A DNA stretch of 64,000 nucleotides from Dryomyza anilis. Taxonomy: Eukaryota; Arthropoda; Insecta; Diptera; Dryomyzidae. Below are positions 826-56,518 of the stretch, one piece after another. A program made the position numbers and the translations under genes. The stretch's first letter is position 1. Every line of letters starts with the position of its first letter. The stretch covers positions 36,352,032 to 36,416,031 of the forward strand of contig OX638135.1 in the NCBI GenBank assembly GCA_951804985.1. The letters are read 5' to 3'. Below the pieces are notes generated by a model. It saw nothing but the letters and a program-made list of their open reading frames with translations. It was not told the DNA's origin and made no database searches.

Positions 826-863
826 AAAGGAGATGTCTTATGATGGAAAACGTTTAGTAGGCT

Positions 864-1226
864 ATGGTAAATAAACCAAGCGATCAGGTGAGCAAAAGGT
901 CAATTTCATATAACAGTAATCGAAAAGTTTTTGTTAACACGAATAATCCGGCACAACGATGCAAATATTGCAACTCATTCGATCATGCCATTTACAACTT
1001 TTCAAAGTTTCTTGATTTTACTCCCGGCCAACGTTTTAAAGAAGTAAAAAGGCTTAATCTCTGTTTAAATTGCCTTAAAGCAGACCATTCTATGAAATTT
1101 TGCAAACTTAATGGCTGTCGTTTTTGCTCTTCTAAGCACAATACGTTGCTACATGAACACCGATCCTCCACCTACCATAGAACCAATCCCCACAATCGAT
1201 ACTCCTACCACCTCAGTTGCCACTAA
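864..1226 (+). pseudogene. BEL/Pao gag zinc-knuckle region
   Basis: The Cys/His pattern is typical of the C-terminal gag of BEL/Pao elements: CKYC..FDHAIYNF, then CLNCLKADHSMKFC, then CRFCSSKHNTLLH. In the first knuckle the expected last Cys is Phe (YNF), so it should not bind zinc normally. The second and third knuckles keep their Cys and His ligands. It lies directly upstream of the protease fragment. Confidence 0.8.
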
Positions 1227-1336
1227 CAACCAATAATCTGCTCTTATTGTATCATTGACTGCGGACTCGCAATCGGAAATTTTAGAGTCGCCTCCAGAAG
1301 ATTACGTTTTTTTTAGCTACTGCCGTCGTCCTCATA

Positions 1337-1744
1337 AAAAATATTGCAGGTTCTCTAATTCCGTGTCGAGCGATACTTGACTCAGCTTCACAAGTTAATT
1401 TTATCACAAGCCGTCTTACTGGTCAGCTGAAAATTAAGTCTACAAAATCTACAACTATTATATCGAGAATTGAAAAGGCTGATTTGGTTGCAAATCAAAT
1501 CGTTCAAATATTTATACAAGCTCGAGCCGGCCAATATTCAACATCATTTTCATCCGTCGTCGTTCCAAGTATCGTTGATAATCAACCGAATTTTACCATA
1601 AATTATTCCGATTGGAATATACCATATAATTTGAAGTTGACTTATCCACTCGAAAAGTCGAAAATCATGTTGAACATACCTCAAAGATTACAAAAGAAGA
1701 ATCGGATTACGAACAATATTTTGTTGAAACGCATACTCGCTTAA
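1337..1744 (+). pseudogene. BEL/Pao aspartic protease region
   Basis: The frame starting near 1337 reads IPCRAILDSASQVNFI. This is the retropepsin-like motif of BEL/Pao proteases around the catalytic Asp; the usual D-S-G is D-S-A here. Similarity then fades toward the reverse transcriptase, which is in another frame, so a frameshift lies between about 1700 and 1750. Confidence 0.65.
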
Positions 1745-2406
1745 ACACAGGAGCTTATTCTGTTCGTTTGCCGATGAAAAAATCTCCACCTCATCTCGGT
1801 GATTCATATCATCATGCTTTACATCGATTCAAGAAACTAGAAGAACGTCTTCAACGTAACCCCGATCTAAAATCTCAATATACCAAGTTTTTGAAAGAAT
1901 ATAATGATCTTCAACACATGTCAGCTATTGATAGTATTCCCTCTGGAGTACCTTCATTTTTTTCGCCTCATCACTGTGTAATGAAAGCTGATAGCACAAG
2001 TTCCAAATTGTGCGTTGTTTTTGATGGTTCAGCACGTACGACCTCAGGATAATCTCTCAACTATATGTTAATGGCGGGACCAACAATTCAGCCGTCTCTT
2101 TTCAAATTGGGTTGACTGCTGATATATGTAAAATGTATCGTTGCGTTCGCGTAATATGAATATTTGCAATGTGTTTATGAATATTTGCATCCGATTTCAG
2201 ATCATTTTTTATTTTCGTTTCTCCCAACCACACATGCCAAAAGAACAACTAAGCGTACAGTGCTATCGTACATTGTTAAATTTTATGATCCGATTGGACT
2301 TATAGGACCCGCTATCACGAAAGCCAAAATATTTCTTCAAAGATTATGGAAGGAACGCTTGGATTGGGATGAAAGCATTTCATTAGAGATGCAATCAAAT
2401 TGGTAA
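1705..2406 (+). pseudogene. BEL/Pao reverse transcriptase, internally deleted
   Basis: The first part reads YSVRLPMKKSPPHLG, then FFSPHHCVMKADSTSSKLC and VVFDGSA, as in BEL/Pao reverse transcriptase fingers. After a stop near 2052 another frame shows MAGPTIQPSLF and TADICKMYR, the motif containing the first catalytic Asp. From about 2160 the sequence jumps to the connection region (KRTVLSYIVKFYDPIGLIGP). The YxDD catalytic block is absent, which indicates an internal deletion near 2150-2200. A stop at 2404-2406 separates it from the RNase H part. Confidence 0.85.
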
Positions 2407-2409
2407 AAT

Positions 2410-3342
2410 TTGTGTGAAGGATTCAAGCATGTAGGTAGTTGTTATTTTCCTAGGCTCGTGTTAATACCGAATGCAAAACTGGACGTTCATGCATTTTGTG
2501 AATCCAGTCTTGCGGCATATGGCGTGTGCATTTACATTCGCTCTGAGCATAATGATAAAATAAAAGCAAAATTGTTCTGTTCAAAGTCGAGAGTATCCTC
2601 GCTCAATGCGTTGACTGTGCCGAAGTTAGAATTATCAGCAGCACTATTGTTGGCGGAGCTCACAAATTCAATTATGGAAATGAATATATTTCAAGGAGAA
2701 TTTCACTGCTGGTCGGACTCTACTGTAGTTTTATCATGGTTGCTAGATGAGTCATCAAACTACAACATATTCGTTTCAAATCGTATAAGCCGTATCCAAA
2801 CCTTTACAAACAATGTGTATTGGCATCATGTTCCGTCCGAAATAAATCCGGCTGACATAATATCGAGAGGTGCTACATCTGAAGAATTGATAAGTTCAAC
2901 ATTATGGAATTCAGGACCTCCATTTCTTCTGAGGGCGCGATATGAATGGCCAGCCAGTCCTGCACGTCGTCGAGATCTTCCTGAGCAGCGCAAAACGGTT
3001 TTAATTATAACAACAAAGTTCACAGATTATTCAGTTAATTGCAAATATATAAACTCATTTAGTCGAATGCAAAGGATATATGCATACATTTATAGATTTG
3101 CTATTTCTAAATTAAAAGAAAGGTGTGCTGGGCCACTAACGATGATTGATATTCAGAAAGGAACGTATTTACTGATTCGTATAGTTCAAAGAACAAAATT
3201 GGTGTCCGATTATAAATTACTGGAGACAAACGAATGTATCGAAGCATCCAGCAATTTGTTATCTTTAAACCCATTTCTCGATTCACATGGCTTGATGAGA
3301 GTTGGCGGTCGTTTACGGAATTCAGAGTTGTATTTCGAATAA
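2410..3342 (+). pseudogene. BEL/Pao connection and RNase H domain
   Basis: This is the longest intact stretch of the element, 310 codons. It contains HAFCESSLAAYGVCIYIR, SRVSSLNALTVPKLELSAAL, then CWSDSTVVLSWL and the HHVPSEINPADIISRG motif typical of the BEL/Pao RNase H to integrase linker. RNase H would remove the RNA strand during reverse transcription. The end carries LMRVGGRLRNSE, the start of the integrase zinc-binding region, before a stop. Confidence 0.88.
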
Positions 3343-4458
3343 ATACACCCCATTATTTTGTCCAAGGCGCACCCGTTGACCAATTCTATTATATCATACT
3401 TCCATTTAAATGTCTACATGCAGGTCCACAATCTCTGCTAGCAACAATCAGACTTCAATATTGGCCTATAGGTGGCAAAAAAAAGTCATCAAAATACAAA
3501 ATCGATGTGTTAGATGTTTTCGAGTAAAGCCAAAAGTAATGGAACACATCATGGGAAACTTACCACAAGAACGAGTGCAGTCTCATCGCGTTTTTTTAAC
3601 AACAGGTGTAGTTTTGCGGCCCATTCTTCTATCGCTCAAAAATTCGACATAGACAGCCAATTAAGTGCTATATATGCTTATTTATCTGCTTTGCAACGAA
3701 AGCAGTTAACCTGGAATTAGTGAAGGAATTATCGATGTCATCATTTCTTTAAAAGATTTTGTTGTACTCGTGGGAACCCTATGTAAATTTGGTCGGATAA
3801 TGTCACGAATTACGTAGGTGCCAAAAATGACCTTGCTGATTTAAAAGAACTTTTCCTGAATGAAAGCCACATAAAAAAAGTGCAACAACAACGTTTGGAA
3901 GACGGTATCGATTGGCATTTCATACCTCCCAGATCACCACATTTTGGCGGTCTCTGAGAGGCCTCTATACAATTCGTCAAATTTCATCTTCTTCGTACTA
4001 TTGGTCTGTCCATATTGGACTTTAAGGAGCTTAGAACCTTATTCAGTCAAATCTCTACAATTATTAATTCTCGTCCTTTGTGTCCTCTTACAGAAAACGT
4101 TGATGATCTGGGAGTACTCACGCCTGCGCATTTTCTTGTTGGTGCTGCATTTACTTCAATCGTAGAACCAGACGTTTCCACGCTTAATATACATCGATTA
4201 GGTAGATGGCAGCGGGTTTGCTATATGCAGCAACTGTTCTGGAGAAAATGGAGCACAGAGTACTTAACATTACTTCAGCAGCGAATTAGTTGGCGATCGT
4301 CAACTACAAATTTAACTGTGGGCGTACTTGTTTTGATAAAGGATGAAAACATCCCGCCAATAAAATGGCCATTAGGCAGAGTAATAGAAATAATCAAAGG
4401 AGATGATAATGTTGTTCGTATTGCTGTCGTTCGGACCAGCAATGGTGTTACCAAGTGA
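3343..4458 (+). pseudogene. BEL/Pao integrase (zinc-binding, core and C-terminal domain), broken
   Basis: Fragments in changing frames match BEL/Pao integrase: HAGPQSLLATIRLQYWPIGG and CVRCFRVKP (HHCC region), then IWSDNVTNYVGAKNDLADLK with a catalytic Asp, and GIDWHFIPPRSPHFGGL. The next codon, normally Trp, is TGA, immediately before the catalytic Glu of the DDE triad (3956-3960). The C-terminal part at 4015-4458 is open: TIINSRPLCPLTENVDD and LTPAHFLVG, ending in WPLGRVIEIIKGDDNVVRIA. Confidence 0.87.
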
Positions 4459-19269: not shown

Positions 19270-19935
19270 CACAACGACATTAACCGACGGGGAGTAGATG
19301 CCGTGCATTTCACTCCTAAGACATAGCATACAGTAGGCGGTGAGTGCAAGGTGTAGTACACTGACCTCTCTGTGACGGTTGACAACGAGAGTAACCGACG
19401 GGGAGTAGATGCCGTGCATTCCACTCCTAAGACAGAGCGTACAGTAGGCGGTGAGAGCAAGGTGCAGTACACTGATCTCTCTGTGACGGTTGGCAACGAC
19501 AGTAACCGACGGGGAGTAGATGCCGTGCATTTCACTCCTAAGACAGAGCGTACAGTAAGCGGTGAGAGCAAGGTGCAGTACACTGACCTCTCTGTGACGG
19601 TTGATAACGACAATAACCGATGGGGAGTAGATGCCGTGTATTTCACTCCTAAGACATAGCGTACAGTAGGCGGTGAGAGCAAGGTGCAGTACACTGACCT
19701 CTCTGTGACGGTTGACAACGATAGTAACCGACGGGGAGTAGATGCCGTTCATTTCACTCCTAAGATAGAGTGTACAGTAGGAGGTGGGAGCAAGGTGCAG
19801 TACACTGAACTCTCTGTGACGGTTGACAACGACAGTAACTGACAGGAAGTAGATGCCGTGCATTTCACTCCTAAGGCAGAGCGCACAGTAGGCGGTGAGA
19901 GCAAGGTGCAGTACACTAACCTCTCTGTGACGTGT
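19270..19935. repeat. 111-bp tandem repeat, 6 units, inside the solo LTR
   Basis: Units recur at 19284, 19395, 19506, 19617, 19728 and 19839, a constant period of 111 bp. Shared blocks are CCGACGGGGAGTAGATGCCG, TTTCACTCCTAAGACA and AAGGTGCAGTACACTGACC. Because 111 is divisible by 3, long frames stay open on both strands; they are not evidence of a protein. Confidence 0.93.
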
Positions 19936-24179: not shown

Positions 24180-24475
24180 TCTTGTTTGTAAAGCATGCTA
24201 TGCTAACGTGCATGACTACCAACTCCTGACGGTTCTGACGGTATGATTTCGAGCCCCAATCACACCGAATTCGTATATACGATTTATTTATTGTTATCAA
24301 TACGTCATCACACAAAGATCACTGATGAGGATACTTGGCTGTATCCGAAACGGTCCGTATGATCTTTGCTTTTGTTTTCAACTTGTTGTTGTTTCTTCAA
24401 AAAACTTTCAATAGAACTTAGCCATGACCTGGGCATTAGTCAGTTTGATGTCGGCTCTCTTCACATAGAAAAAAC
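24180..24475 (+). mobile_element. tRNA-like SINE-type repeat with hammerhead ribozyme, copy A
   Basis: The head has CTAACGTGCATG..., a B-box-like ATTTCGAGCCC at about 24246-24256, then ACCGAATTCGTAT, AATACGTCATCACACAAA and a complete hammerhead motif, ending around TGTCGGCTCTCTTC. The same order of blocks recurs at 24760-24860 plus 26022-26165. The A box is poorly preserved in this copy. The layout resembles the tRNA-headed, hammerhead-carrying Sm-alpha repeats of schistosomes; minimal hammerheads are also known from Penelope-like elements. Borders are approximate. Confidence 0.65.
24313..24368 (+). ncRNA. type I hammerhead ribozyme, copy A
   Basis: All core parts are present in order. Stem I 5' strand CAAAGATCA (24313-24321), CTGATGA (24322-24328), stem II GGATAC/GTATCC with loop TTGGCT (24329-24346), GAA (24347-24349), stem III ACG/CGT with loop GTC (24350-24358), cleavage-site A (24359), stem I 3' strand TGATCTTTG (24360-24368). 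Stem I is 9 perfect base pairs. The cleavage triplet is GTA, which fits the NUH rule. Predicted cut: after 24359. The 3-bp stem III is the minimal form seen in animal retroelements. Confidence 0.88.
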
Positions 24476-24860
24476 CTTCTAATAATGAATGCACGGTGGT
24501 TGTTTGCACCGATAAGCAGACAAGTTCCACATATGCAATGCTATCCCAGTACTTCCTATACAAAGTTGTTATACTAACAACAAGCATAGACCTGAAATAT
24601 GCGAAAAGAAGAACACGAATTAATAGTAACAACATTTAAAGCAAAACCAGTGCGTTACTCAAATGCAGTCGTTCTATCGATTGTCGGTACCACTCGTCGT
24701 TCTTGCCACAAAGTCTGTTCTAAAAATAGAACAGGTAAAACTGCAACTTAGACGAGTGATGGTTATGTGGTTCAGTTGCCGAGCACCTAGCGTGCTTGCT
24801 CCCAAATCCCGACGTTTCTGACTGCATGAGTTCGAGCCCCAACCGTACCGAATTCGTATG

Positions 24861-26021
24861 TGGGCCATTCCACACCAAATCGACCAGCGGTTGGAACTCA
24901 CCTTCTTCGATTTCAATGAAATTTGGGCAACTGATAAAGGGTATCGAGATATGCATTGACCAATTTTTTTGTGCTTCAATGTTACAAAAATGGGCAAAAA
25001 ATATCTTTTGTATGGTTGTTCATATTTCAATATCTCTTAAAGTAGAAATGTTAGAAACTCCCTTGCTGGCTTGTTTGAAAGCAAATATAACAAGCATTTA
25101 GACCAATTAAGTTGTAACTTCTAAACTTGAATATGTGGCCCGTTGTAATTATCCTTCAAAATTAATGTCATTAAAAAGACCCTTTTTAAAATTCTAAAAA
25201 AATCACATATTTTGCTTGATTTAATATAAATGTTCATGCTAAATTTTTATGATGGCATCATATTTAAAAAAAAAAATGTACTAAATTTTTATTTATTTTT
25301 TGAATTGAAAATAAATAAATTTTCTTTAAAAGTAAAATTTGCAATACTTTTTTTTAATGTATTTGTATCTCTGATTTCAAAAATGGCGTAATTTTTATCA
25401 AATTGTTTCTAGTTTTTGTGATATATACCATTCTTCGAAAAATGTAAAAACTATATCCCAAAATCAATATCTCAAAAAAAAAAAGATTCAATATGATAAA
25501 ACTGACACCATTTTAGAAATCAGAGTTACAAATACATTCAACAATGATTGCAACTTTTACTGTAGAAAACATATATTTTTTTTCAATACAAAAAGTAAAT
25601 AAAAATTTAGTAATTTAGTAAATTTAGTTTTAAAAAAGATGTTATTAAAATACCATAAAATATCAAAAAGACATCAATTTTTAAGTGCAAGGATAATGAC
25701 CACGGCCACATGTTAAAGTTTAGAAGATACATCCTAATTTCTCTAAACGCTTGTTCTATTAGAATTAAAACGAGCCATCAACGGGGTTCTAGCATTTCTA
25801 CTTAAGAGATATTGAAATATGAACAACCATAGAAAAGTAATGATTGGCCCATTTTTTTGTAATTTTGAAGCACTGTATCTCTGGAATTAAAGGTCGAAAA
25901 AAAAAATATTGGTCAATGCATATCATAATATGCTTTATCAGTTGCCCAAATTTTATTGAAATCGAAAAGGTAAAATCTCAAAATTTACTTTTTTTGTTTC
26001 GATTTGGAGTGGAATGGCCCA
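24861..26021. mobile_element. 1.16-kb near-palindromic inverted-repeat element
   Basis: Ends are TGGGCCATTCCAC and GTGGAATGGCCCA. Inverted similarity runs from the ends nearly to a centre around 25435, including CAACTGATAAAGGGTAT against its reverse near 25935 and AATATCTCTTAAAGTAGAAA against the reverse of 25798-25820. It has no coding capacity. It lies inside hammerhead repeat copy B. The target duplication is unclear. Confidence 0.8.
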
Positions 26022-26058
26022 TATATGAATTTTTTGTTATTATCAATACGTCATCACA

Positions 26059-26114
26059 CAAATATCACTGATGAGGATACTTGGCTGTATCCGAAACGGT
26101 CTGTATGATTATTG
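26059..26114 (+). ncRNA. type I hammerhead ribozyme, copy B (weaker)
   Basis: CTGATGA (26068-26074), stem II GGATAC/GTATCC with loop TTGGCT (26075-26092), GAA, stem III ACG/TGT with a G-U pair (26096-26104), A at 26105, then TGATTATTG. The core, stem II and loops are identical to copy A. Stem I (CAAATATCA with TGATTATTG) has 7 of 9 pairs, with two adjacent mismatches. It may cleave more weakly than copy A. Confidence 0.78.
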
Positions 26115-26184
26115 CCTGTGTTGTGTTTTAAATTTGTTGTCGGCTCTCTTCCAAATATAGTACATCGAAAAAACCTTTTAACTT

Positions 26185-27081: not shown

Positions 27082-27830
27082 CTCTCAATTACCCGGGTAC
27101 CCGGGTTTTTCGCGCTACCCAGGTAAGACCCCAGTAGTTCAAATACTCGAAAAACCCGGGTATTAAATGTTCGAACTACCCGGGTAATTTGTTCGTTCGT
27201 TTGTTGGAGCTATTCGTGTAGCACGTTTGTTCGAGTAGCTCGATTTCTCGTTCGTTGTTCGAGTAGCTCGATTGCTCGATCGTTGTTCGAGCTTCGAGTA
27301 GCTCGTTCGTTCTTTCGTTTGTTCGATTGACGATTGTTCATTTTATCGCTTGTTAATTTGTCTGTCCGTTCGTTTGCTTGATGTGAGAGTTGGTCGGAAG
27401 TGGTCGGAAAAATGTGGGTGGACAAAAGTGGGTGGGTGGGCAAAAGTGGGCGGAAAGTGATAAAAAGACTGACAAAAATTTTATTGCAGAAATCGGTAGC
27501 AGACATCGAGGGAAATCGAATGGTACCACTCTCAGTGGTCCCTGATCCCCAGAAGTCCGCAAACGAACGGACAGTGAAATTAACAAGCGATCAAATGAAC
27601 AATCGTCAATCGAACAAACGAACGAACGAGCTACTCGAAGCTCGAACAACGATCGAGCAATCGAGCTACTCGAACAAACGAGCTACTCGAATTGCTCGAA
27701 CAAACTACCCGGGTTTTGCGAACTACCCGGGTAGCTCGAACATTTAATACCCGGGTTTTTCGAGTATTTGAACTACCCGGGTATTACCCGGGCCTTCGAG
27801 CGCCCGTATGAAATCGAGAGCTCTGCTCTA
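27082..27830. repeat. inverted-repeat element rich in ACCCGGGT palindromes
   Basis: Both ends carry CAGAGCTCTC-type sequence, then clusters of the 8-bp palindrome ACCCGGGT (four on the left, at least four on the right) spaced by GTTCGAACTACC and ACTCGAAAAA segments, then CGAGTAGCTCG repeats. The arms face each other around about 27470. No coding capacity. A half-copy of the right arm recurs at 30640-30895. Confidence 0.7.
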
Positions 27831-30284: not shown

Positions 30285-30640
30285 TAAAAAGAATAAGAAT
30301 AACCGTTATTTACGGTCTCTGCTCCAAAGGGTACTAATAGCATTCTAATGGTGTCCGCTATCGATTGGACCACTCCAAAGGGTACCATTAGTCTTCTAAT
30401 GAGGTTCGCTATCCATTTCCGCACTAACATTTTTTTGGCCAAAAAGTTGTTTTTGACCCTTTTTTGGGGGTCAGGGACCACTGAGAGTGGTACCATTCGA
30501 TTTCCCTCGATTTCTGCTATCGATTTCTGCAATAAAATTTGTTATGGTCTTTTTATCACTTTCCGCCCAATTTTACCCACCCACCCACTTTTGTCCACTC
30601 ACATTTTTCCAACCACTTCCGACCAACTCCCACATCAAGC
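30285..30640. repeat. repeats inverted relative to 27390-27545
   Basis: GGGTCAGGGACCACTGAGAG, TGGTACCATTCGATTTCCCT and the CCACCCACTTTTGTCCA stretch are the reverse complement of the segment at 27390-27545. Two shorter related units (CTCCAAAGGGTACYA) precede them at 30320-30410. Confidence 0.65.
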
Positions 30641-31013
30641 AAACGAACGGACAGACAAATTAACAATCGTCAATCGAACAAACGAACGAACGAGCTACTC
30701 GAAGCTCGAACAACGATCGAGCAATCGAGCTACTCGAACAAACGAGCTACTCGAATAGATCGAACAAACGAACGAACAAACTACCCGGGTTTTGCGAACT
30801 ACCCGGGTAGCTCGAACATTTAATAGCCGTGTTTTTCGATTATTTGAACTACCCGGGTATTACCCGGGCCTTCGAGCGCCCTTATGAAGTCGAGAGCTCT
30901 GCTTTAAATGCAATTTAAAACCGCAAACGAATTGATCCAGAAAAACGGTGAATGCACATATCCTTGGATTGGTCTCTAGTTTCACGTACGTGTGGATTTT
31001 TTCCAGTGTGCAC

Positions 31014-34837: not shown

Positions 34838-35639
34838 TATAATATAATATAATATAATATAATATAATATAATATAATATAATATAATATAATATAATAT
34901 AATATAATATAATATAATATAATATAATATAATATAATATAATATAATATAATATAATATAATATAATATAATATAATATAATATAATATAATATAATAT
35001 AATATAATATAATATAATATAATATAATATAATATAATATAATATAATATAATATAATATAATATAATATAATATAATATAATATAATATAATATAATAT
35101 AATATAATATAATATAATATAATATAATATAATATAATATAATATAATATAATATAATATAATATAATATAATATAATATAATATAATATAATATAATAT
35201 AATATAATATAATATAATATAATATAATATAATATAATATAATATAATATAATATAATATAATATAATATAATATAATATAATATAATATAATATAATAT
35301 AATATAATATAATATAATATAATATAATATAATATAATATAATATAATATAATATAATATAATATAATATAATATAATATAATATAATATAATATAATAT
35401 AATATAATATAATATAATATAATATAATATAATATAATATAATATAATATAATATAATATAATATAATATAATATAATATAATATAATATAATATAATAT
35501 AATATAATATAATATAATATAATATAATATAATATAATATAATATAATATAATATAATATAATATAATATAATATAATATAATATAATATAATATAATAT
35601 AATATAATATAATATAATATAATATAATATAATATAATA
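34838..35639. repeat. AATAT satellite, array 1 (left of Helitron)
   Basis: About 160 units of AATAT with no interruption visible. AATAT is a well-known Drosophila satellite. The reverse strand has no stop in any frame, which creates long IILYY reading frames of no meaning. The 34605-34837 stretch before it holds nothing recognisable. Confidence 0.97.
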
Positions 35640-35660
35640 TCCTATTAATATAATAAATCT

Positions 35661-36614: not shown

Positions 36615-38452
36615 AAAAACAAACTCACCACACTAAAACTAACCAAACTAAAACTCACCATACTAAAATTCACCCTTAAATTAACCACATTAAAACCCAC
36701 CACACTATAATTCACCACACTAAAACTCACCACACCAAAATTCACCACACTAAAACTCACCACACTAAAACTCACCACACTAAAACTCACCACACAAAAA
36801 CTCACCACACTAAAACTCACCACACAAAAACTCACCACACTAAAACTCACCACACTAAAACTCACCACACTTAAACTCACCTCACAAAAATTCAACACAC
36901 TAAAACTCACCACACCAAAACTCACCACACTAAAACTCACCACACTAAAACTCACCACACTAAAACTCACCACACAGAATCTCACCACACTAAAACTCAC
37001 CACACTAAAACTCACCACACTAAAACTCACCACACTAAAACTCACCACACTTAAACTCACCACACTAAAACTCACCACACTTAAACTCACCACACAAAAA
37101 TTTAACACACTAAAATTCACCACACTAAAACCCACCACACTAAAATTTCACCACACTTAAACTCACCACACTAAAATTCACCACACTAAAACTCACCACA
37201 CTAAAATTTCAACACACTAAAACTCACCACACTAAAACTCACCACACAAAACCTCACCACACTAAAACTCACCACACTAAAACTCACCACACAAAAACTC
37301 ACCACACTAAAACTCACCACACTTAAACTCATCTCACAAAAATTCAACACACTAAAACTCACCACACTAAAACTCACCACACTAAAACTCACCACACTAA
37401 AACTCACCACACAAAATCTCACCACACTAAAACTCACCACACTAAAACTCACCACACAAAATCTCACCACACTAAAACTCACCACACTAAAACTCACCAC
37501 ACTAAAACTCACCACACTTAAACTCACCACACTAAAACTCACCACACTAAAACTCACCACACTAAAATTTCACCACAGTAAAACTCACCACACTAAAACT
37601 CACCACACTGAAACTCACCACACTAAAACTCACCACACTAAAACTCACCACACTTAAACTCACCACACTAAAACTCACCACACTTAAACTCACCACACAA
37701 ATTTTTAACACACTAAAATTCACCACACTTAAACTCACTATAACAAAACTCTCCACACTAAAACTTACCACACTAAAACTCACCACACTAAAACTCACCA
37801 CAATAAAACTCACCACACTAAAACTAACCACACAAAAATTCAACACACTAAAATTCACCACACTTAAACTCACCACACTAAAATTTCACCACACTAAAAC
37901 TCACCACACTAAAACTCACTACACTAAAATTTCACCACATTAAAATTCACCACTTTTAAACTCACCACATTAAAACTCACTACACTCAAATTTCGATACA
38001 CTGAAACTCACCACACTAAAACTCACCGCACTAAAATTCACCACACTAAAACCCACCACACTATAATTAACCACACTAAAACTCACCACCCTAAAATTCA
38101 CTACACTAAAACTCACCACAATAAAATTCATCACATTAAAATTCATCACACTAAAACTCACCGCAATAAAAATCACCACACTAAAACTCGCTACACTAAA
38201 ACACGCCACAATAAAACACGCCACATTAAAATTCACCACACTAAAACCCACCACACTATAATTGACCACACTAAAACTCACCACACTTAAAAACACCACA
38301 CTTAAACTCACCACACTCAAATTCACCACACTGAAACTCACCACACTAAAACTCACCACACCAAAACTAACCACAATTAAACTCACCACTCCAAAATTCA
38401 CCACATCTAAACTCACCACACCGAAACTTACTACATTAAAACCCACCACACT
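36615..38452. repeat. 15-bp minisatellite (ACTCACCACACTAAA), about 120 units
   Basis: Degenerate units with constant 15-bp period over 1.8 kb, in the Helitron. One strand is made almost only of A, C and T. Reading frames such as VVSFSVVSFS on the minus strand come from the period being a multiple of 3 and are not proteins. Confidence 0.93.
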
Positions 38453-38454
38453 AA

Positions 38455-38650
38455 AACTTCTACTGGGAAAAACTCTACGGGGAAGAATTCTACGGGAAAG
38501 AATTCTACCGGGAACAATTCTACCGGGATGAATTCTACGTTGAGAATTCTACGGGAAAGCGTTCTATGTGGATTTTCCGGGAAGATTTCTACTGGGAATA
38601 ATTCTGCGGAGAAGCGCAATCTGAGAAAAAATTGTCTTTGAGAAAAGTTG
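38455..38650. repeat. second 15-bp minisatellite (GAATTCTACGGGAAA type)
   Basis: About ten degenerate units follow the first array directly, with the same 15-bp period but different sequence. Confidence 0.75.
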
Positions 38651-38820: not shown

Positions 38821-40523
38821 TAATATAATATAATATAATATAATATAATATAATATAATATAATATAATATAATATAATATAATATAATATAATATAATA
38901 TAATATAATATAATATAATATAATATAATATAATATAATATAATATAATATAATATAATATAATATAATATAATATAATATAATATAATATAATATAATA
39001 TAATATAATATAATATAATATAATATAATATAATATAATATAATATAATATAATATAATATAATATAATATAATATAATATAATATAATATAATATAATA
39101 TAATATAATATAATATAATATAATATAATATAATATAATATAATATAATATAATATAATATAATATAATATAATATAATATAATATAATATAATATAATA
39201 TAATATAATATAATATAATATAATATAATATAATATAATATAATATAATATAATATAATATAATATAATATAATATAATATAATATAATATAATATAATA
39301 TAATATAATATAATATAATATAATATAATATAATATAATATAATATAATATAATATAATATAATATAATATAATATAATATAATATAATATAATATAATA
39401 TAATATAATATAATATAATATAATATAATATAATATAATATAATATAATATAATATAATATAATATAATATAATATAATATAATATAATATAATATAATA
39501 TAATATAATATAATATAATATAATATAATATAATATAATATAATATAATATAATATAATATAATATAATATAATATAATATAATATAATATAATATAATA
39601 TAATATAATATAATATAATATAATATAATATAATATAATATAATATAATATAATATAATATAATATAATATAATATAATATAATATAATATAATATAATA
39701 TAATATAATATAATATAATATAATATAATATAATATAATATAATATAATATAATATAATATAATATAATATAATATAATATAATATAATATAATATAATA
39801 TAATATAATATAATATAATATAATATAATATAATATAATATAATATAATATAATATAATATAATATAATATAATATAATATAATATAATATAATATAATA
39901 TAATATAATATAATATAATATAATATAATATAATATAATATAATATAATATAATATAATATAATATAATATAATATAATATAATATAATATAATATAATA
40001 TAATATAATATAATATAATATAATATAATATAATATAATATAATATAATATAATATAATATAATATAATATAATATAATATAATATAATATAATATAATA
40101 TAATATAATATAATATAATATAATATAATATAATATAATATAATATAATATAATATAATATAATATAATATAATATAATATAATATAATATAATATAATA
40201 TAATATAATATAATATAATATAATATAATATAATATAATATAATATAATATAATATAATATAATATAATATAATATAATATAATATAATATAATATAATA
40301 TAATATAATATAATATAATATAATATAATATAATATAATATAATATAATATAATATAATATAATATAATATAATATAATATAATATAATATAATATAATA
40401 TAATATAATATAATATAATATAATATAATATAATATAATATAATATAATATAATATAATATAATATAATATAATATAATATAATATAATATAATATAATA
40501 TAATATAATATAATATAATATAA
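38821..40523. repeat. AATAT satellite, array 1 continued (right of Helitron)
   Basis: About 340 uninterrupted AATAT units in phase with the array at 34838-35639. Before the Helitron inserted, the array was about 2.5 kb. Its right border (AAATATAATGTTCRTAATACA) is shared with two other arrays. Confidence 0.97.
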
Positions 40524-41171
40524 ATATAATGTTCGTAATACATTCATGTTACATTGTTTAATAACACAGCACAATACAAAAATTATCCGCAATCTATTTA
40601 GGATTTTCCGATGGACGTAAAATTCTAATCACTATCCCATACTCAGTTTTAACAGATTTCCTCAAGTTTTTGAGGTATTACGTAAAAGAAATTTAAAGCA
40701 ATTCACGGGGTTTTCTACATATTTTGGTTTATAACTTTTTACAGATTTTCACATTTCTCTTATATTCCATTGAGATTTCTTCAGCTAATATTTTTTTGTT
40801 GCGTAACATCTATGATTTTCATAATTAAATAAAAGTACATATCTTTTATCAAACTTGTTCTATAATTATATACTTCCTCTTACTTTGTTTTTGTAAATCA
40901 CTCTTTAAGTTTTCAACTTAAAGTAAAATTCACAAATTCGATTGAAAAATTTACCTAACTTTTTTGTTCGATATGAACATAAACAGGAACATATATTATT
41001 TTATTTTAAAAATATGAATATATAGTACGTGATCTTCATTTGACTTGATTGTAAGATACTGAGCCAAATCCATGGATAGTAATATATTTATGCAGAGCTA
41101 AATTCTATTGATTTAAGGTTTTTAAAATTCTATGAATAATTATATTGATTAAAAGTAGTACCACAAAAGAA
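40524..41171. repeat. segmental repeat, copy 1 (0.65 kb, truncated)
   Basis: Nearly identical to 42334-42981 and 52839-53487, beginning ATATAATGTTCGTAATACAT and including GGATTTTCCGATGGACGTAA. It stops at CCACAAAAGAAA, where AATAT array 2 begins. No genes inside. Confidence 0.92.
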
Positions 41172-42333
41172 AATATAATATAATATAATATAATATAATA
41201 TAATATAATATAATATAATATAATATAATATAATATAATATAATATAATATAATATAATATAATATAATATAATATAATATAATATAATATAATATAATA
41301 TAATATAATATAATATAATATAATATAATATAATATAATATAATATAATATAATATAATATAATATAATATAATATAATATAATATAATATAATATAATA
41401 TAATATAATATAATATAATATAATATAATATAATATAATATAATATAATATAATATAATATAATATAATATAATATAATATAATATAATATAATATAATA
41501 TAATATAATATAATATAATATAATATAATATAATATAATATAATATAATATAATATAATATAATATAATATAATATAATATAATATAATATAATATAATA
41601 TAATATAATATAATATAATATAATATAATATAATATAATATAATATAATATAATATAATATAATATAATATAATATAATATAATATAATATAATATAATA
41701 TAATATAATATAATATAATATAATATAATATAATATAATATAATATAATATAATATAATATAATATAATATAATATAATATAATATAATATAATATAATA
41801 TAATATAATATAATATAATATAATATAATATAATATAATATAATATAATATAATATAATATAATATAATATAATATAATATAATATAATATAATATAATA
41901 TAATATAATATAATATAATATAATATAATATAATATAATATAATATAATATAATATAATATAATATAATATAATATAATATAATATAATATAATATAATA
42001 TAATATAATATAATATAATATAATATAATATAATATAATATAATATAATATAATATAATATAATATAATATAATATAATATAATATAATATAATATAATA
42101 TAATATAATATAATATAATATAATATAATATAATATAATATAATATAATATAATATAATATAATATAATATAATATAATATAATATAATATAATATAATA
42201 TAATATAATATAATATAATATAATATAATATAATATAATATAATATAATATAATATAATATAATATAATATAATATAATATAATATAATATAATATAATA
42301 TAATATAATATAATATAATATAATATAATATAA
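41172..42333. repeat. AATAT satellite, array 2
   Basis: About 232 uninterrupted units, same orientation as the other arrays. Left border at CCACAAAAGAAA, right border identical to arrays 1 and 3. Confidence 0.97.
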
Positions 42334-43524
42334 ATATAATGTTCGTAATACATTCATGTTACATTGTTTAATAACACAGCACAATACAAAAATTATCCGC
42401 AATCTATTTAGGATTTTCCGATGGACGTAAAATTCTAATCACTATTCCATACTCAGTTTTAACAGATTTCCTCAAGTTTTTGAGGTATTACGTAAAAGAA
42501 ATTTAAAGCAATTCACGGGGTTTTCTACATATTTTGGTTTATAACTTTTTACAGATTTTCACATTTCTCTTATATTCCATTGAGATTTCTTCAGCTAATA
42601 TTTTTTTGTTGCATAACATCTATGATTTTCATAATTAAATAAAAGTACATATCTTTTATCAAACTTGTTCTATAATTATATACTTCCTCTTACTTTGTTT
42701 TTGTAAATCACTCTTTAATTTTTCAACTTAAAGTAAAATTCACAAATTCGATTGAAAAATTTACCTAACTTTTTTGTTCGATATGAACATAAACAGGAAC
42801 ATATATTATTTTATTTTAAAAATATGAATATATAGTACGTGATCTTCATTTGACTTGATTGTAAGATACTGAGCCAAATCCATGGATAGTAATATATTTA
42901 TGCAGAGCTAAATTCTATTGATTTAAGGTTTTTAAAATTTCTATGAATAATTATATTGATTAAAAGTAGTACCACAAAAGAAAATTTAAATCAAAAACGG
43001 TAAGCGTGAATTTGTAATTAATCTGAAGACTTAAAAAGTGATTTTTAAAAACTAAGTAAGAGGAATCATACAATTATGGATTTAGTTTCACATATAATAT
43101 ATATTTTTAATTAATTATGAAAACATAATATGTTATGCAATAAATAATAGGTCCACCTTAAAATAAATATTTTTTATGTCTGACTGGTCAGATTAATACG
43201 AAATTCATGAAGTTTTTTAAAAGTATTCTCAAAAGAAATTGGATAAATAACGCAAATCTGTGAAATGTTAAAGTCCAAGATATGTAAAAAAACACGAACA
43301 TTGACATATATTTGAATTACGTAATAACTGAGGCAGTCTGAACTGAGGCAATCTGAAAAAACTGAATATTAAGTAGGGATTAGAATCTTGAAATTCATCG
43401 GAAAATCATTCTAAGATAGTGGATAATTAAAAAAGGTCTTCATTTGTTGTCAAGTGTAATTTCATTAAATATTTTTACGATTTCAATAATTATGGTTTTC
43501 ATCTTGATTTTTGATTTTTATGTA

Positions 43525-44182
43525 CACTCAAAATAAAAAGTCTGTAACAGTAGCAAAAAAGGTTGCCAATATAGAAAAAATTTTTGATGAAAAGAGGAAA
43601 CCGCCGGATTCTGCTGAAACCGCAAATGAAAGTTTGCTATTTCAGGGAACTTTTTTTATGCTATTAGAGCAGACAATTTTAGCTATTTTAACAAATTGTT
43701 TGCTGTTAACTCCAATTCATAAAAAAAGAAAATAAAAAAATATATATTTTTAGTATTTTAATATTTTTTTTTATTTTTGATATATTTTTTTTATTTTTAT
43801 ATTATTATTATTTTTTACTATATATATTTTAATTATTTTATTTATCTCATATTTTTATTTTACCTTTATTTCACAAATTCACTCTTGCATGCGTGCATTA
43901 TTATTACGTATAAGAAATATCTCATTTAAATAAACATGTTGTCGAATAAGAGTCTACGAATTATAGACACATTTAGCTGCAGCGTCTCGTGACTATGGCG
44001 CCATCTAGTGCATGTTAGCTACACACCAGTGACACTAGCACGATCTTGATCACTAGCAGAACTAAGATTCCCAGCAAACAGTTCGCTGTTGCAGATAAAA
44101 GTATGCTGTAAATGCAAATTAAAGTGTGCTAAAATTTAGCAGTCAGAGTTTGCTATTAATAGCAGACTTTTTATTTTGAGTG
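43525..44182. mobile_element. 658-bp TIR element with TA target duplication (segmental copy 2)
   Basis: Ends CACTCAAAATAAAAAGTCTG and the exact reverse complement, flanked by TA on both sides, as in Tc1/mariner-type MITEs. A 74-codon frame (43511-43735) starts before the left end and has no recognisable motif. The interior GTTTGCTATTAATAGCAGAC and GTTCGCTGTTGCAG motifs resemble subterminal repeats. Confidence 0.82.
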
Positions 44183-44682
44183 TATGTTTATATATTTTGA
44201 GGTTGTTATATGAATGCACATAATGAAAATTTGAGTGTAAGAAAATGCGAGACTTGAGGACGGGTTGAAGACTGCACGAGCAGTGGCTACAATGTTTTGT
44301 TATTGTAACTTCGCTGTGACAGACCAATGCTTTGTTATTGTAACTTCGCCCAAGACTTAGTCAGAACTCACAGACTTATGCCTGGGTAATCGTTCTCGCC
44401 CAAGACTTGACAAACACTGTAATGTAGTTGTGGTATATATAGTTCTTTACTAAAACAAGTTTTTACAAAGACAATTCATCCACGGAATATTCTTTTTTGG
44501 ACTATTCGTCCCTGAAAATTTCCCTTTGAGAGTTTTTTTTTTGTCAGAAACCATTTTTTCCCGGACCATTCATTACACTACACAACAAAATGAGAAAAAA
44601 AAGTTTACGCAGTAAATTCCATTATTTTTGTATTATTGGAAATGACCCGCAGAATTTGAATATATGAATTAAAAAATTTTCT

Positions 44683-45945
44683 ATGGATAGGTTTACGAGG
44701 TTTCGGGCAATAACTTTTGTAATGAGCTTTCAAAAAGGTGGTCACATATATTTGTCAACATCTCGCGTTTTATAAAACGCATATGCTCAATTATTATATC
44801 GAATGAAAGGTTATTAAATATCCAATAAACAGTTTTTAAAGCACTTTGGAATTGGTTCACTGGTTTAAGACAACTCTATAGAAGAACTCGAAAAATGTAA
44901 ATATTTTCGACCAAAATTGTATTCAAAAATTCATTGAAAAAATGGCGAAAGATGGTGCACAGTTTGTAATATTCCAAAACTAGCATGCACATTAATAAAT
45001 AAAATATTGTTAAAATAAAAGAAATCTATGGACACATTTTGGGAACAAAAAAAATCTTGTGAAAGCATTACAATTGAGTATTAACTAAAAAAAAAATCGC
45101 ATTTTATGTTTATACCCTATACCCATGGGTTACATGTTATAAAATGTATGTGAAGATATTTTAGCGCCTCTAAGTTGGCATGAAAGGTATAAAAAAGTAT
45201 ATATTTTTTGATCAACATCACTTTCCGAGTGGATTTAGATATGACCGTCTATCTGACCGCCTATACACGATAACTTCAAAGCTGCTATTTCAAATGATGT
45301 GAAAATTATTATCAATATATTTTAGTAAAATAGTAATTCAAAGTTCGAAAATGAGTCGAATTAGTCAACGTAATCTACTACATCCACTACGAGACATGGG
45401 TTTACTTTTTAGGATCACATATCTCGTTAAGTATTAAAGATAAAGTTATAAAATTTAAAATTAATTACAAGCAATCAACAATAAATAGGTGCTCAAAAAA
45501 TGAGCGTGATCCGCTCACATTTTCAAGTTTTTATTTTTAAGCCTATTTGTATAGCACTCAATTATATTGCTTTCACATAACTTTTTTAATCTTCAAATTT
45601 TACCCATATCTTTTTGTCATTGATATTAGAAAAAGTGTCAACTAATTTTGGAAAATTAAAATATTTGTATCATCTTACTTTCTCGATTTTTTGTCCATAT
45701 TTTTAAATGATTTTTTTTTTAATTTTTGTTGAAAAAAATTTTCAAGTTCTCCTATCTTCTCTTAAACTAATGAAATAATTTAAAAATGTTCTGAAAAATG
45801 TTTATTGGATATTCAATTATCTTTCATTCAATATAACACATGTGATCACATGTGTTATTTAGAACGCGAGATATTTGCAAATACATGTGTGCACCTTTAT
45901 GAAACTCGGTTCAAAATTTATTATCCCATATTTTGTAAACCTATG
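44683..45945. mobile_element. 1.26-kb inverted-repeat element with mini-me-like insert (segmental copy 2)
   Basis: ATAGGTTTACGAGG at the left matches the reverse of TTGTAAACCTATG at the right. Inner arms share ATCTCGCGTT and GAATGAAAGGTTATTAAATA / TCCAATAAACA with the inverted segment at 45800-45880. The arms are about 200-230 bp and diverged. The spacer contains a partial mini-me-like copy. Confidence 0.7.
45111..45530 (-). mobile_element. mini-me-like element, partial, diverged (segmental copy 2)
   Basis: TATACCCTATACCCATGGG, then AAAAGTATATATTTTTTGATC, GACCGTCTATCTGACCG and GAGCGTGATCCGCTCACATT correspond in order to the minus-strand copy at 6233-6990. The hairpin end is missing. Confidence 0.65.
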
Positions 45946-45958
45946 TAAAGAAACATTA

Positions 45959-46261
45959 ATAATAATAGTTTGGCGCTACAGTCCTGTATAGAACTTCGGC
46001 CGAGCTCTCTCACCAATTTGAGCTGTGCGTGTTATATTTGTACTCAAAGTGGTGGGACCTAAGGTTTATTGGCGAATCCGAACGGAGGGTGAGAGCTTTT
46101 TCATAGGCAATGGTTTTACTCTCGTAGGTTTGCCATTTACTGTTGAGAGGTAGCGCGGTATAGAAAAATGTTTCTATGAAAAGATGTTGTTAGCCCCAGT
46201 CCAGGCTTGAACCGGGGACCTTTCGGCTCGCAGTCCAACGCACTAACCACTGAGCTACCGC
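45959..46261 (-). mobile_element. tRNA-derived SINE, minus orientation (segmental copy 2)
   Basis: Reverse of the family: the (AAT)n tail at the left, CTTGAACCGGGGACC (B box, reversed) and CCACTGAGCTACCG (A box, reversed) at the right. AGAAACATT occurs on both sides (45949-45957 and 46262-46270), a target duplication. It is also present at the same place in copy 3, so it predates the duplication. Confidence 0.88.
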
Positions 46262-46516
46262 AGAAACATTATTAAACCATATTTTCGGAATCAGGGCGTC
46301 ATTTTACATAATGAAAAATAACATTGAGTGCTGCGCAGAATGGCTGTTGTGTAGTGTTATCAGATAATTATTTCTCGAGATAATTTTTAACCATTCAGTT
46401 GAACAGCACATTGAATGTACACGAAGGGAAATATACTTCTAAAAGAAACAGTTTTGAATTTTAATAATATCAATAAAATTCTAAATTCAAATAATGTAGT
46501 AGTAGTAGTGGCGCAT

Positions 46517-46827
46517 CAGTAGCCGCGGTAGCTCAGTGGTTAGTGCGTTGGACTGCGAGCCGAAAGGTCCCCGGTTCAAGCCTGGACTGGGGCTAACAAC
46601 ATCTTTTCATAGAAACATTTTTCTATACCGCGCTACCTCTCGTCAGTAAATGGCAAACCTACGAGAGTAAAACATTGCCTATGAAAAGCTCTCACCCGCC
46701 GTTCGGATTCGGCAATAAACTGTAGGTCCCACAACTTTGAGTACAAATATAACACGCACACCTCAAAATGGTGAGAGAGCTCGGCCGAAGTTCTATACAG
46801 GACTGTAGCGCCAAACTATTATTATTT
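46517..46827 (+). mobile_element. tRNA-derived SINE, young insertion private to segmental copy 2
   Basis: 311 bp with A box TAGCTCAGTGG (46529-46539), B box GGTTCAAGCC (46573-46582) and an ATTATTATT tail. Flanked by the 12-bp duplication GTAGTGGCGCAT (46505-46516 and 46828-46839). Copy 3 has the empty site with a single GTAGTGGCGCAT at 57094-57105. This fixes the SINE's length and shows it inserted after the copies separated, or was absent from the source of copy 3. Confidence 0.95.
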
Positions 46828-46839
46828 GTAGTGGCGCAT

Positions 46840-47990
46840 AGAGGAATTGCCCGGTAGATATACCTGGCGCGAATCAAATAAACGCTCGCGGACCAAACTG
46901 GCTAAGGGAAGTATCACTCTGAAAATAAAAACAACATGAAGGTCGAAAGGTGGTCGAAACTTACGGATCCACACTCCAGCAACCGCAACCTCCTCGACAA
47001 GCAAAAGGATGCAAAAGCCCACTACGTGACAGGACCTCAGCGACAGGACCTGACTGCAGACGGGACCAACTGAAATAGACAAAGAGGAAACAACGTCCAC
47101 TATGCACAAATGCTCCCTCTTGCCAAAAACAGGACTGGACCTCAGCGTCAGACCGAAACTTGGCATCACCAGTGATCTTAAATCGTGCATATCGAAAGAA
47201 TCCTGGCACCTCATGCACTAAAACTACAAAAAGGGCCAGGTCTCATGAAGAATCGCTGGACAAAACGGAAAAAAACTAGATCGACCAGCTTCAACACTGC
47301 CTCGGAATTGCCGTTGGCCATCGTCGACCGTCCCGACTCAGTCCATCTGGCTGGTCGTGGGGGTCGCAATTTAAAGGGAGATACTGTCGGCGAACATGAG
47401 CGGGGAGGAGGTCAGTTTTTACGGTGCCGGTTAGCATAAGGGCGTTAAGGTTGTTGGAGTGACCAACAGGAAGTCAACAGACTTTCTAAAGCAAGCTATC
47501 AGCAGCCATGGCGATCTTTTTCCAGGCTCAATGCTTGACGTAATTCCCAGGACCTCGCTTCCTCTGAGATCGGTCATCGCAATGTGGATTCCGCCTCTCA
47601 TCCCGGTAGGACATGAGACCATACTGCGACTAATCGGCAATCAAAATAGTGAACTGAACACTGCTGGCTGGCGAAAATTCTCGTCAACCACCAGTAAGAA
47701 TGGGATGGGAAGTGACTACTTGATAGCAGTAGATCAAACGTCATCTTCCTATCTCAGAAAAAAATCAGGTCGCATTATGTTTGGCCAGGGGTCGGAAGGA
47801 AGACGTAGATGTGGCCTTAATTCAAGAACTATGGCTGGTTAAAGGCAAGCTTCAAGGCTTATGGCGGAGGTAATACAATTTGTATCTCCCTCAAATTGAT
47901 GGTAAGATAAGAACATGTATTCTCATTGAGAAATCAATTAGTAATAACGTTTTTTCTCTTCCATACAGTAACGGAGACCTCACTATGCAC
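46840..47990 (+). pseudogene. non-LTR retrotransposon ORF1-like/endonuclease-start fragment (segmental copy 2)
   Basis: The frame at 47459-47842 includes RSVIAMWIPPLIPVGHETIL, RLIGNQNSELNTAGWRKFSS and SKNGMGSDYLIAVDQTSSSY. This resembles the DUF4780-type domain found upstream of the endonuclease in some insect retroelements (from memory). Another frame then reads DVALIQELWLVKGKLQGL, the start of an APE-type endonuclease. It is truncated after AACGGAGACCTCAC. Frameshifted; not functional. Confidence 0.55.
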
Positions 47991-47994
47991 AGTG

Positions 47995-48884
47995 AATAAA
48001 TATTGACCAAAAATAATAACTGTTAAATTTTAATATGAGAAAAAATTGTAAGAGGATTTAAAGGCAGTTTCTTGAATCGTAAAAATCAAAAATAATATCT
48101 TAAAAGCTTGTAGATATATAGCCATACGATAATTCCGATGTTCGACTTGTTGTTAACAAAATATTTTTTTAAAACCATTTTGATTTGAAATCTTCTTATT
48201 AAAAATGTTATATTTTTCTATGTTAACATAGCAATAGACTTACAATTAGACTTAAATTATGTATACTTAGTAAATTTGTAATTAGAAAATGTTTTTGTGT
48301 CTATTTTATTTTGTGTAATCTAGGGATAGAGAATATTTTTAAATAATGTTTTGTAATTGTGGCATTTAAAACAAAACCGCACTTTAGATAGGAAAATAAG
48401 AAAAAGCTAAAAAAAGGCTATTCGCAAATTTTTGATATAATATTTTGACAAGTATGCTTAATATAAAAATAACTATTTACTTGCATCAACGTGGTATATG
48501 AAATAAAAATACGTGATATTTTTGAAGTCTGGCTGGATTTGTATATGTTAGAGCGGGAGGAAAAGGTTTTTGGCAATGATATCAAATGTTTTAAAAAGTA
48601 CCAATAGTTTGTTGGACTATTTATTATTGGACTATTGATTAAATAAAAAATTTAAAACAAATTAAAAGCGGCATATTAAATAAAATTGCAAAATTGGACG
48701 GATCAGGCCAATTTTTGAAAATATATTAGCGTGCTTACTTGACTCATATTGGTGAGAATAACATGTGTATTAAATTTCATTTGTTTACGACCATTTTCAC
48801 TATTTTTGGCCGCTGAGAATATGAAGATTCCCCACTGTGCGATGGTAGTATACGAACAAAAGGATAGCGAATCGTTGCTCCTAT
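47995..48884. other. AT-rich stretch, no gene recognised
   Basis: Non-coding sequence shared with copy 3 (58255-59147) and, down to about 48650, with 63000-63605. It may be degenerate element sequence. Confidence 0.5.
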
Positions 48885-50196
48885 CTTTTTTTTTATTTTT
48901 ACCGATTAACCAACAATAAGAAGATGAGGTAGTGTCGGTGAATATTTGTTTTGAATTTGCCAATATCAAAAATGTCAGGAAAAACTGACGCAGGGCGATT
49001 GTTCCATAAACGAATCGTGCGACTGAAGAACGAATTCTGTCTATAATGCGTGGTTCGAATCGTGCGACTGAAGAACGAATTCTGTCTATAATGCGTGGTT
49101 CTGTTGAGAGACGACTGGACTTCGAAGGGGTTGGCTTGGTTCGATTCCCGAGTAGATCGAAAGAACACACGACCTGGTGGAATCAGGCCATATATCTCCT
49201 TTGAATACTTACCATTGTAATACCTATAAAATGGCCTAACACACCCAACGGTCCTTCGATGCTCAAGAGAGCCAATAGAGGATGAAATATTTTCATCCCC
49301 TATTACATATATTTCACGTGGTTGGATTGGGTCCAGGAACTCCAAAGAAGATTTAGAAGTCCCTACCCATATGTGCGAGTTGTATTCCATCTTAGGCCGA
49401 ATATAGGTAGTGTAGGCAGTGCGTAAGTCAGCAGGTGTGAAGTATGTTTTACACAGTAATAAAAAAACCGAGGCACTTGGTCGCTTTTTTCGACACATCA
49501 AATGTGTGATCATTCCACTGGAGGTCACATTGAATCGATATACCCAGAAGGTCAAGAGCAGCTGACTGCACAATATCCACAGCACCCATATTGAGAGGAG
49601 GGAGGGGTGCATCCATTTTTTTGTGTGATAACAGACAACATTGGGACTTGCTTGCATTACTCTATTTGCCTACTCGGAGATTGATTTAAGGTCATTGTTG
49701 AGTGTGTCATTTATAGTGCGTCTTTTACTCTCAATCTCCAAAGAGTTTGGGCGCTTGTTGAACAAATACGAATGACAAATGTTACTGTCATCTGCAAAGG
49801 AATGAATTGGGTTCTGGTTCAATGACAGAAGGACATTGATAAATACCACAAATAGGGAAAGGGATAGTGCGTAACTGATGGAATGTGAACTGAGAACACA
49901 CGACCCTGGAGAAAACTCGATATCCATCGAGTAAAAGATTCACCGAAACCATATGCATTTAGTTTTTTATGCCACACTCGATCAAAAGCCTTGGAAATAT
50001 CCAGAGCGAGAGAGTAAGTTTGTTTACTCTACCCGAAAAGGTGAACACAATTATTCCACTTTTCGGAGATGACCGCCATCAAATCACCTGTGGATCTGGT
50101 CTTACGGAAACTATATTGTCGGTCACTAAGTAATTCGTTTCGCTCTAGATCGTCCACAAGGTGGAAATGAATTACGCTTTCCATTACCTTGGATAG
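48885..50196 (-). pseudogene. non-LTR reverse transcriptase, Jockey/CR1-like, cut by AATAT array (segmental copy 2)
   Basis: On the minus strand, from 50196: KVMESVIHFHLVDDLERNEL, QYSFRKTRSTGDLMAVISE, after a frame change HSFADDSNICHSYLFN (FADD catalytic motif kept), then LRTAYTTYIRPKMEYNSHIW and the C-terminal SFFSRTIRLWNNRPASVFPD. An A-rich tail follows the stop (48885-48900). Upstream sequence is replaced by AATAT. It has a 1-bp loss relative to copy 3 near 49887 and a private in-frame 45-bp duplication at 49012-49101. Confidence 0.85.
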
Positions 50197-56504: not shown

Positions 56505-56518
56505 TAAAGAAACATTAA

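Follow-up and report, generated by a model that had tools for sequence, protein, structure and literature searches.

A probable decayed hammerhead copy from a dispersed retrozyme-like family in the fly Dryomyza anilis

Within the window, a 64,000-nt stretch of Dryomyza anilis DNA, positions 24313-24368 read like a complete type I hammerhead ribozyme, which raises the question of whether the motif is genuine and what kind of sequence carries it. The first-pass annotation had found all type I parts there in the right order, with a very short stem III, and we found this reading to be exact, including the 3 bp of stem III. The parts of this site, hereafter copy A, are as follows.

24313-24368, plus strand: hammerhead copy A, type I arrangement, predicted cleavage after A 24359 (GUA triplet)
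24313-24321 and 24360-24368: stem I strands CAAAGATCA and TGATCTTTG, read from the letters
24322-24328: CTGATGA of the core
24329-24346, plus strand: stem II, 6 bp, GGATAC / loop TTGGCT / GTATCC
24347-24349: GAA of the core
24350-24358, plus strand: stem III, 3 bp, ACG-GTC-CGT with GTC as the loop
24359: A17

Copy A has the core CUGANGA...GAAA and a cleavage triplet of the form RUH, the criterion given in PMC7936874, and its three stems, with stem I open, have the type I topology. We scanned both strands of the window with a type I descriptor (stem I of at least 5 bp, stem II of at least 4 and stem III of at least 2) and found copy A as the sole match; the same descriptor matched 0 of 400 dinucleotide-shuffled windows. 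Judged by its sequence, the hammerhead motif at 24313-24368 is genuine.

The covariance-model check did not support the motif. Rfam gave 0 matches at the gathering threshold in the whole window and no hammerhead family up to E 10 in a 301-nt stretch at copy A. With a 72-nt stretch, the sole hammerhead model listed was RAGATH-1-hammerhead, which fell on the right bases below threshold (12.4 bits against a gathering value of 56.3, E 4.9), and an unrelated snoRNA model, SNORD109A, scored higher (18.8 bits, E 0.05). The missing match is a limit of the library rather than a defining feature of the motif, yet we count it as a failed test. In folding calculations, the hammerhead fold of the copy A monomer reached -15.6 kcal/mol against -18.5 kcal/mol for the minimum-energy fold. 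The minimum-energy structure of the copy A dimer was a double hammerhead (-45.1 kcal/mol), and in the dimer model ACGG.CCGU of stem III could pair between the two strands.

A type III alternative like the hammerheads reported from dipterans, with H17 at 24243 upstream of copy A, was rejected. It scored 15/16 at copy A, the best of 37,551 tested positions and 0/5000 in shuffles, on a score devised after the site had been seen. The fit is private to copy A, because other genomic copies read GGCATGAG there; it is absent at the second hammerhead of the window, copy B, and type III folding is less favourable than type I by about 13 kcal/mol. An origin in a transposase or other protein was rejected as well: three frames through the hammerheads matched 0 Pfam families, and two had no protein homologue.

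The hammerhead had been taken to stand alone, and this view did not survive a genome search. Allowing up to two mismatches, the 34-nt core occurred at 294 places (145 + 149) in the 656.6-Mb genome (69 contigs), and the reversed core, used as a control in the same search, at none. Exact cores made up 97 of the 100 matches listed, both window copies included, and were spread over seven contigs. A genome search with the window region gave 675 first-look candidates, and all 40 that were scored matched at 80-100%. Viral and genome contigs scanned with exact and degenerate patterns gave 0 matches. Copies of 121 nt on different contigs were 97-98% identical. On contig C4, at 3902736-3902905, two exact cores lie in opposite orientation about 100 nt apart.

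In 70 fetched loci, the parts follow the order tail, spacer, extension, tRNA-like head, hammerhead and tail, repeated in tandem, with one hammerhead per unit of about 600 nt (604 nt in locus L037). Cores are spaced 603 nt apart in L037, 593 in L031 and 583 in the window once a nested element is discounted; spacings in arrays were 608/586, 583/549/586 and 585. Leaving out 10 second fetches of the same place and 14 loci of an amplified group gave 46 mapped loci, of which 6, the window included, carry at least two cores in tandem; L024 is a rearranged three-core case. The longest stop-to-stop frame wholly inside the unit is 60 aa, and overlapping frames reach 80 aa (L037 unit), so the unit is non-coding. 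Folded as a circle, the unit is predicted to reach -158.9 kcal/mol, against -126.0 kcal/mol (sd 15.3) for 30 shuffles.

The amplified group consists of monomers that start at unit position 552. We considered these as a mini-element and rejected the idea: all lie in one common host repeat. Such monomers sit inside another amplified repeat at L045, L049, L052, L053, L059 and L060, and L063, L065-L068 and L070 belong to the same group, with several copies at 2.75-2.86 Mb of contig C6. One copy inside another repeat, passively amplified, accounts in this way for 12 of 56 distinct hammerhead sites.

Alignment to the family unit resolved the element in the window into two units, the second of which is interrupted.

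24203-24359, plus strand: first unit, 5'-truncated, with a head remnant and the hammerhead (unit ~448-604, from a blastn alignment with the L037 unit and the parts map of L001)
24360-24842, plus strand: opening part of the second unit, from tail through spacer and 5' extension to head (alignment to unit 16-504 begins at 24370)
24399-24409, plus strand: first AAAAACYTTC-type motif past the cleavage site, where 10/46 mapped 3' ends of related copies fall (unit 55-61)
24468-24479, plus strand: second AAAAACYTTC-type motif, where 25/46 mapped 3' ends of related copies fall (unit 132-145)
24672-24755, plus strand: 'extension' block of the second unit, common to other genomic copies
24756-24860, plus strand: tRNA-like head of the second unit, A-box-like at 24768-24779 (1 mismatch) and B-box-like at 24829-24839 (2 mismatches)
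24861-26020, unstranded: nested fold-back element with long inverted arms, interrupting the second unit (inverted repeats; boundaries approximate)
26059-26114, plus strand: hammerhead copy B, core identical, CTGATGA at 26068, GCC kept downstream
26106-26181, plus strand: second-unit tail, shortened by an internal deletion; the window element has its 3' end here

The unit alignment picks up again at 26022, past the nested element of about 1.16 kb. That element ends in sequence like TGTGGGCCATTCCAC on both arms and has a possible TA target duplication. Copies A and B have in common a 102-nt stretch of 89% identity, and the two heads (24216-24276 and 24799-24859) are 84% identical; between copies A and B alone, tests for selection were not significant (p 0.09 and 0.16), the hammerhead being no better kept than the head at p 0.16. 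Copy B has two mismatched pairs in stem I (A.A and T.T) and a G-U pair in stem III, and the minimum-energy fold of its dimer is not a double hammerhead. As mapped from its parts, the element in the window is an old copy of two units, interrupted by the nested fold-back element. The tandem map overturned the idea of two independent SINE insertions in the window, and a proposed relic of a second core upstream gave no alignment above shuffles.

The first-pass annotation had called the setting fly-like, and the neighbourhood agrees. The nearest named relatives of a BEL/Pao ORF at 2407-3342 are in Drosophila, Anastrepha, Rhagoletis and Haematobia (~46-52% identical). This ORF, a match to Pfam Peptidase_A17, lies in a BEL/Pao retrotransposon remnant at 861-4458. 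The window also contains a tandem duplication of ~10 kb (38821-50193 and 51136-60414, 98-99.7% identity), to which a third piece at 61978-63627 is related more distantly (87%), and long arrays of a 5-base AT-only repeat at 34838-35655, 38821-42340 and 50193-52845. A second fold-back structure at 27118-27792 has arms more than 90% complementary and is related to 30462-30868. Six copies of a 111-nt tandem repeat occupy 19271-19932, and ~122 copies of a 15-nt minisatellite occupy 36621-38458.

To define the family form of the ribozyme, we aligned 45 hammerhead sites, 44 of them together with 1 of the 12 amplified sites. By majority, the sites read CACAAAGATCA-CTGATGA-GGATAC-TTGGCT-GTATCC-GAA-ACG-GTC-CGT-A-TGATCATTGCCTGTG. 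In this form, stem I is interrupted: 5 bp, an A.A mismatch, 2-3 bp and a bulge with GCC come before the outer helix. A constrained fold of L022 leaves GCC as a predicted unpaired 3-nt bulge. The GGC of loop II is complementary to this GCC bulge (91-95% per pair, without covariation). The core is intact in 31/45 aligned sites and stem III is kept in 38/45; the core and all inner pairs together are kept in 10/45. At L022, the Rfam match was again sub-threshold only, to RAGATH-1-hammerhead, and at six family sites the hammerhead fold was computed to lie 3.3-7.5 kcal/mol above the free ensemble.

These sites changed the reading of copy A, whose perfect 9-bp stem I had been singled out as the telling feature. 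At stem I pair 6, 40/45 aligned sites have A.A and 1/45 has A-T. Copy A has A-T in place of A.A and has lost five bases, the GCC bulge among them. Set against the aligned copies, its perfect stem I is thus a change private to copy A. Because the stem I bulge is lost, copy A is probably a weak or inactive ribozyme; by analogy with other natural hammerheads, it has likely lost a tertiary contact. A perfect-looking stem may be a private accident, and the family form must come from many copies.

Pairing of the stems in other genomic copies, the further expectation of the first-pass annotation, is mostly kept. Paired cells amounted to 93.6% in an alignment (A2) of 40 hand-chosen rows, a figure that leans high, since the five sites removed by hand (L011, L014, L024, L054 and the second of L048) included several damaged ones. 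In these rows, 0 pairs were changed on both sides, and shuffles gave 93.8% paired cells. This lack of covariation is expected for inserted copies that decay without constraint.

The 45 sites fall into two subfamilies of 30 and 15 sites, with ambiguous calls in 5/45, and their consensus sequences differ at 18/103 positions of the head, 0/70 of the hammerhead and 0/52 of the tail (head versus hammerhead, Fisher p 5.7e-5). The tail is also without subfamily differences, so the conservation is not specific to the ribozyme. In 13 aligned sites from loci found with a query that did not include the hammerhead, substitutions numbered 52/900 for the hammerhead and 147/1269 for the head (p 2.6e-6); the tail had 108/662, a count inflated by copies that end within it. 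On the reading that we favour, the family ribozyme was kept by selection in source copies.

The head of the unit carries an A box-like TGGTTCAGTAGC and a B box-like GTTCGAGCC (subfamily 1) or GTTCAAATC (subfamily 2), ~60 nt apart. The two B-box forms differ only at what we take to be degenerate positions of the B-box consensus. ARAGORN called no tRNA at the tRNA-like head, and A/B-box pairs of such quality arise by chance about once per strand (17 in 15 shuffles). A Pol III promoter in the head is a candidate only. Within the tandem unit the head has an internal position, and it is not where copies start.

We next consider how the copies end. Their 5' ends are scattered over the unit, with at most 4/46 in any 14 nt (uniform null mean 4.6). 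Their 3' ends are clustered: 25/46 fall in unit 132-145 (29 in 119-145), 10/46 in 55-61 and 7 elsewhere. Measured from the predicted cleavage site, the two clusters lie ~57 and 139 nt further on, each at an AAAAACYTTC motif. The 604-nt L037 unit has AAAAAC(C/T)TTC at positions 45 and 123 only, just 5' of the two 3'-end sites. For a Penelope-like element, ends of this type have been explained by reverse transcription that begins within the RNA, at two positions a short distance beyond the hammerhead (PMC11167929). One of 46 5' ends lay within 10 nt of the cleavage site, and this was a mapping artefact in L024. If hammerhead-cut linear RNA were the template, 5' ends should fall at the cleavage site. 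In the 46 loci they do not single out that site, so such RNA is not evidently the template, and we rejected it in this role. Flanking DNA at 40 loci was 76.5% and 76.2% A+T, compared with 69.0% in DNA 300-1200 nt away. Target duplications of score at least 10 were found at 2/46 loci, against 2.1% in mismatched pairs, with no excess over chance.

Together, these data make it probable that 24313-24368 is a decayed hammerhead copy of a dispersed, non-coding, non-autonomous retrozyme-like retroposon family with units of ~600 nt, in tandem or 5'-truncated partial-tandem copies. The family, its tandem unit, its ends, its AT-rich targets and its subfamily conservation are observed; the following life cycle is what we infer from them. 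A multimeric locus would be transcribed, possibly from the internal tRNA-like A/B boxes, and each hammerhead would cut at CCGUA^UGAU to release unit-length RNA. A host ligase may then circularise the units, as proposed for published retrozymes. Reverse transcription by a partner enzyme would start inside the RNA at either AAAAACYTTC site and stop at random, sometimes beyond one unit, which would produce the 3' ends, 5' ends and tandem copies that we see. Insertion favours AT-rich DNA, as observed in the flanks, without a detectable target duplication.

The suggestion of retrozymes or Penelope-like elements in the first-pass annotation pointed in the right direction. In a non-autonomous Penelope-like element, a Penelope-type reverse transcriptase would copy unprocessed multimeric RNA, and cleavage would be unneeded for insertion. 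The tandem copies, 5' truncation, two internal sites and AT-rich targets of PMC11167929 are all matched here, and scattered 5' ends with no stop at the cleavage site also fit. However, the family hammerhead has 3 bp in stem III and its stem I is extended, unlike the minimal motifs that PMC7761336 describes for Penelope; a minimal Penelope hammerhead would have no stem III. A loose, exon-by-exon search of the genome for GIY-YIG (Pfam PF01541) gave one match among 8 scored candidates, and with one match only, no multicopy canonical Penelope partner is visible. We regard this explanation as plausible, although we lean against it. It is unlikely that the family is a tRNA-derived SINE moved by a LINE with a hammerhead in its body, like schistosome Sm-alpha, which PMC2770079 describes as a tRNA-Gln-related SINE with hammerheads. 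A- and B-box-like sequences do stand in the right order and the two B boxes vary only where the B-box consensus is degenerate, but the head is internal, copies do not start there, target duplications are lacking, and box pairs of this quality turn up by chance about once per strand.

Decay has to be weighed as well. If the ribozyme was once active and all present copies are dead, satellite-like repeats, one would expect what the aligned sites show, with few retaining the core and inner pairs, both window copies structurally damaged and one copy passively amplified inside another repeat. At least 97 exact 34-nt cores on seven contigs among the matches listed, and near-identical 121-nt copies on different contigs, argue against this inert-relic account, which we consider rather doubtful. 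A chance resemblance to a hammerhead would agree with the absence of an Rfam match at threshold and with the greater stability of other folds; the shuffled windows, the core and stems kept in a dispersed family and the invariance of the hammerhead between subfamilies make it extremely improbable. A more specific form of the retrozyme reading is tentative, and on balance we doubt it: a retrozyme with its own Pol III promoter, self-sufficient in making ~600-nt hammerhead-cut circular RNA, which a Penelope-type enzyme would copy from two internal sites.

If true, a Pol III-promoter retrozyme would link three kinds of element that are normally considered separately: SINEs with a tRNA head, retrozymes with circular RNA and Penelope-like elements. 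Published animal retrozymes are said to be promoterless. In one genome, the fly family offers hundreds of dated copies whose 3' ends fall into two sharp classes, a candidate promoter inside the unit, and conservation that spans ribozyme and tail. Three questions thus become testable in a fly: does mobility require cutting by the hammerhead, does circular RNA serve as the template, and is the partner enzyme of Penelope type?

The first-pass annotation knew of no described hammerhead in such a setting in flies; the setting is not undescribed. Hammerheads are reported in Drosophila pseudoobscura, Rhagoletis zephyria, Musca domestica and Hermetia illucens, with type III topology (PMC7936874), and in interspersed repeats of Aedes aegypti (PMC3088659), and retrozyme-like repeats are said to occur in insects (PMC7229834). 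A full-text search of a collection that covers only part of the central literature gave no recognised description of the ~600-nt unit.

Dipteran and HDV-like type III hammerheads (PMC7936874) resemble the fly family in a 6-bp stem II, a YGGC loop (TTGGCT here), an inner stem I of 5 bp, a GCC that follows the cleavage site and can pair with the loop, and dipteran hosts. The fly family differs in being type I, with stem III closed and stem I open, and its GCC lies 9-11 nt past the cleavage site, behind A.A and 2 bp, and is followed by U rather than a purine. The schistosome elements Sm-alpha and Sj-alpha (PMC2770079 and PMC8490949) likewise combine a tRNA-like sequence and a type I hammerhead in a high-copy retroposon, whereas the fly family carries its tRNA-like head inside a tandem unit and its copies start elsewhere. 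Helenus and Ajax TRIMs are also short non-coding retroelements with a tRNA-like sequence in the repeated part, but animal Helenus (PMC10886601) has LTRs and 4-bp duplications; the fly family has no apparent LTR structure and no excess of duplications (score at least 10). Poseidon from Anolis (PMC11167929) and the fly family are alike in that copies are tandem or partly so, are truncated at the 5' end, end 3' in two classes a short distance beyond the hammerhead and lie in AT-rich targets, whereas the fly unit has no reverse transcriptase or GIY-YIG endonuclease frame of the kind found in Penelope-like elements. With animal non-LTR retrozymes (PMC7229834 and PMC7761336), the family shares a dispersed distribution and non-coding units that stand in tandem and contain one type I hammerhead apiece. 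Published units measure 150-400 nt, against 549-608 nt in the fly arrays, which fall outside that range; retrozymes seem to be without promoters (PMC7761336), whereas the fly unit has a candidate internal tRNA-like promoter; and retrozymes are known as circular RNA, the fly family from genomic sequence. On our best reading, this is a retrozyme-like family of the animal non-LTR kind, whose copies have Penelope-like ends and whose unit contains a candidate tRNA-like promoter.
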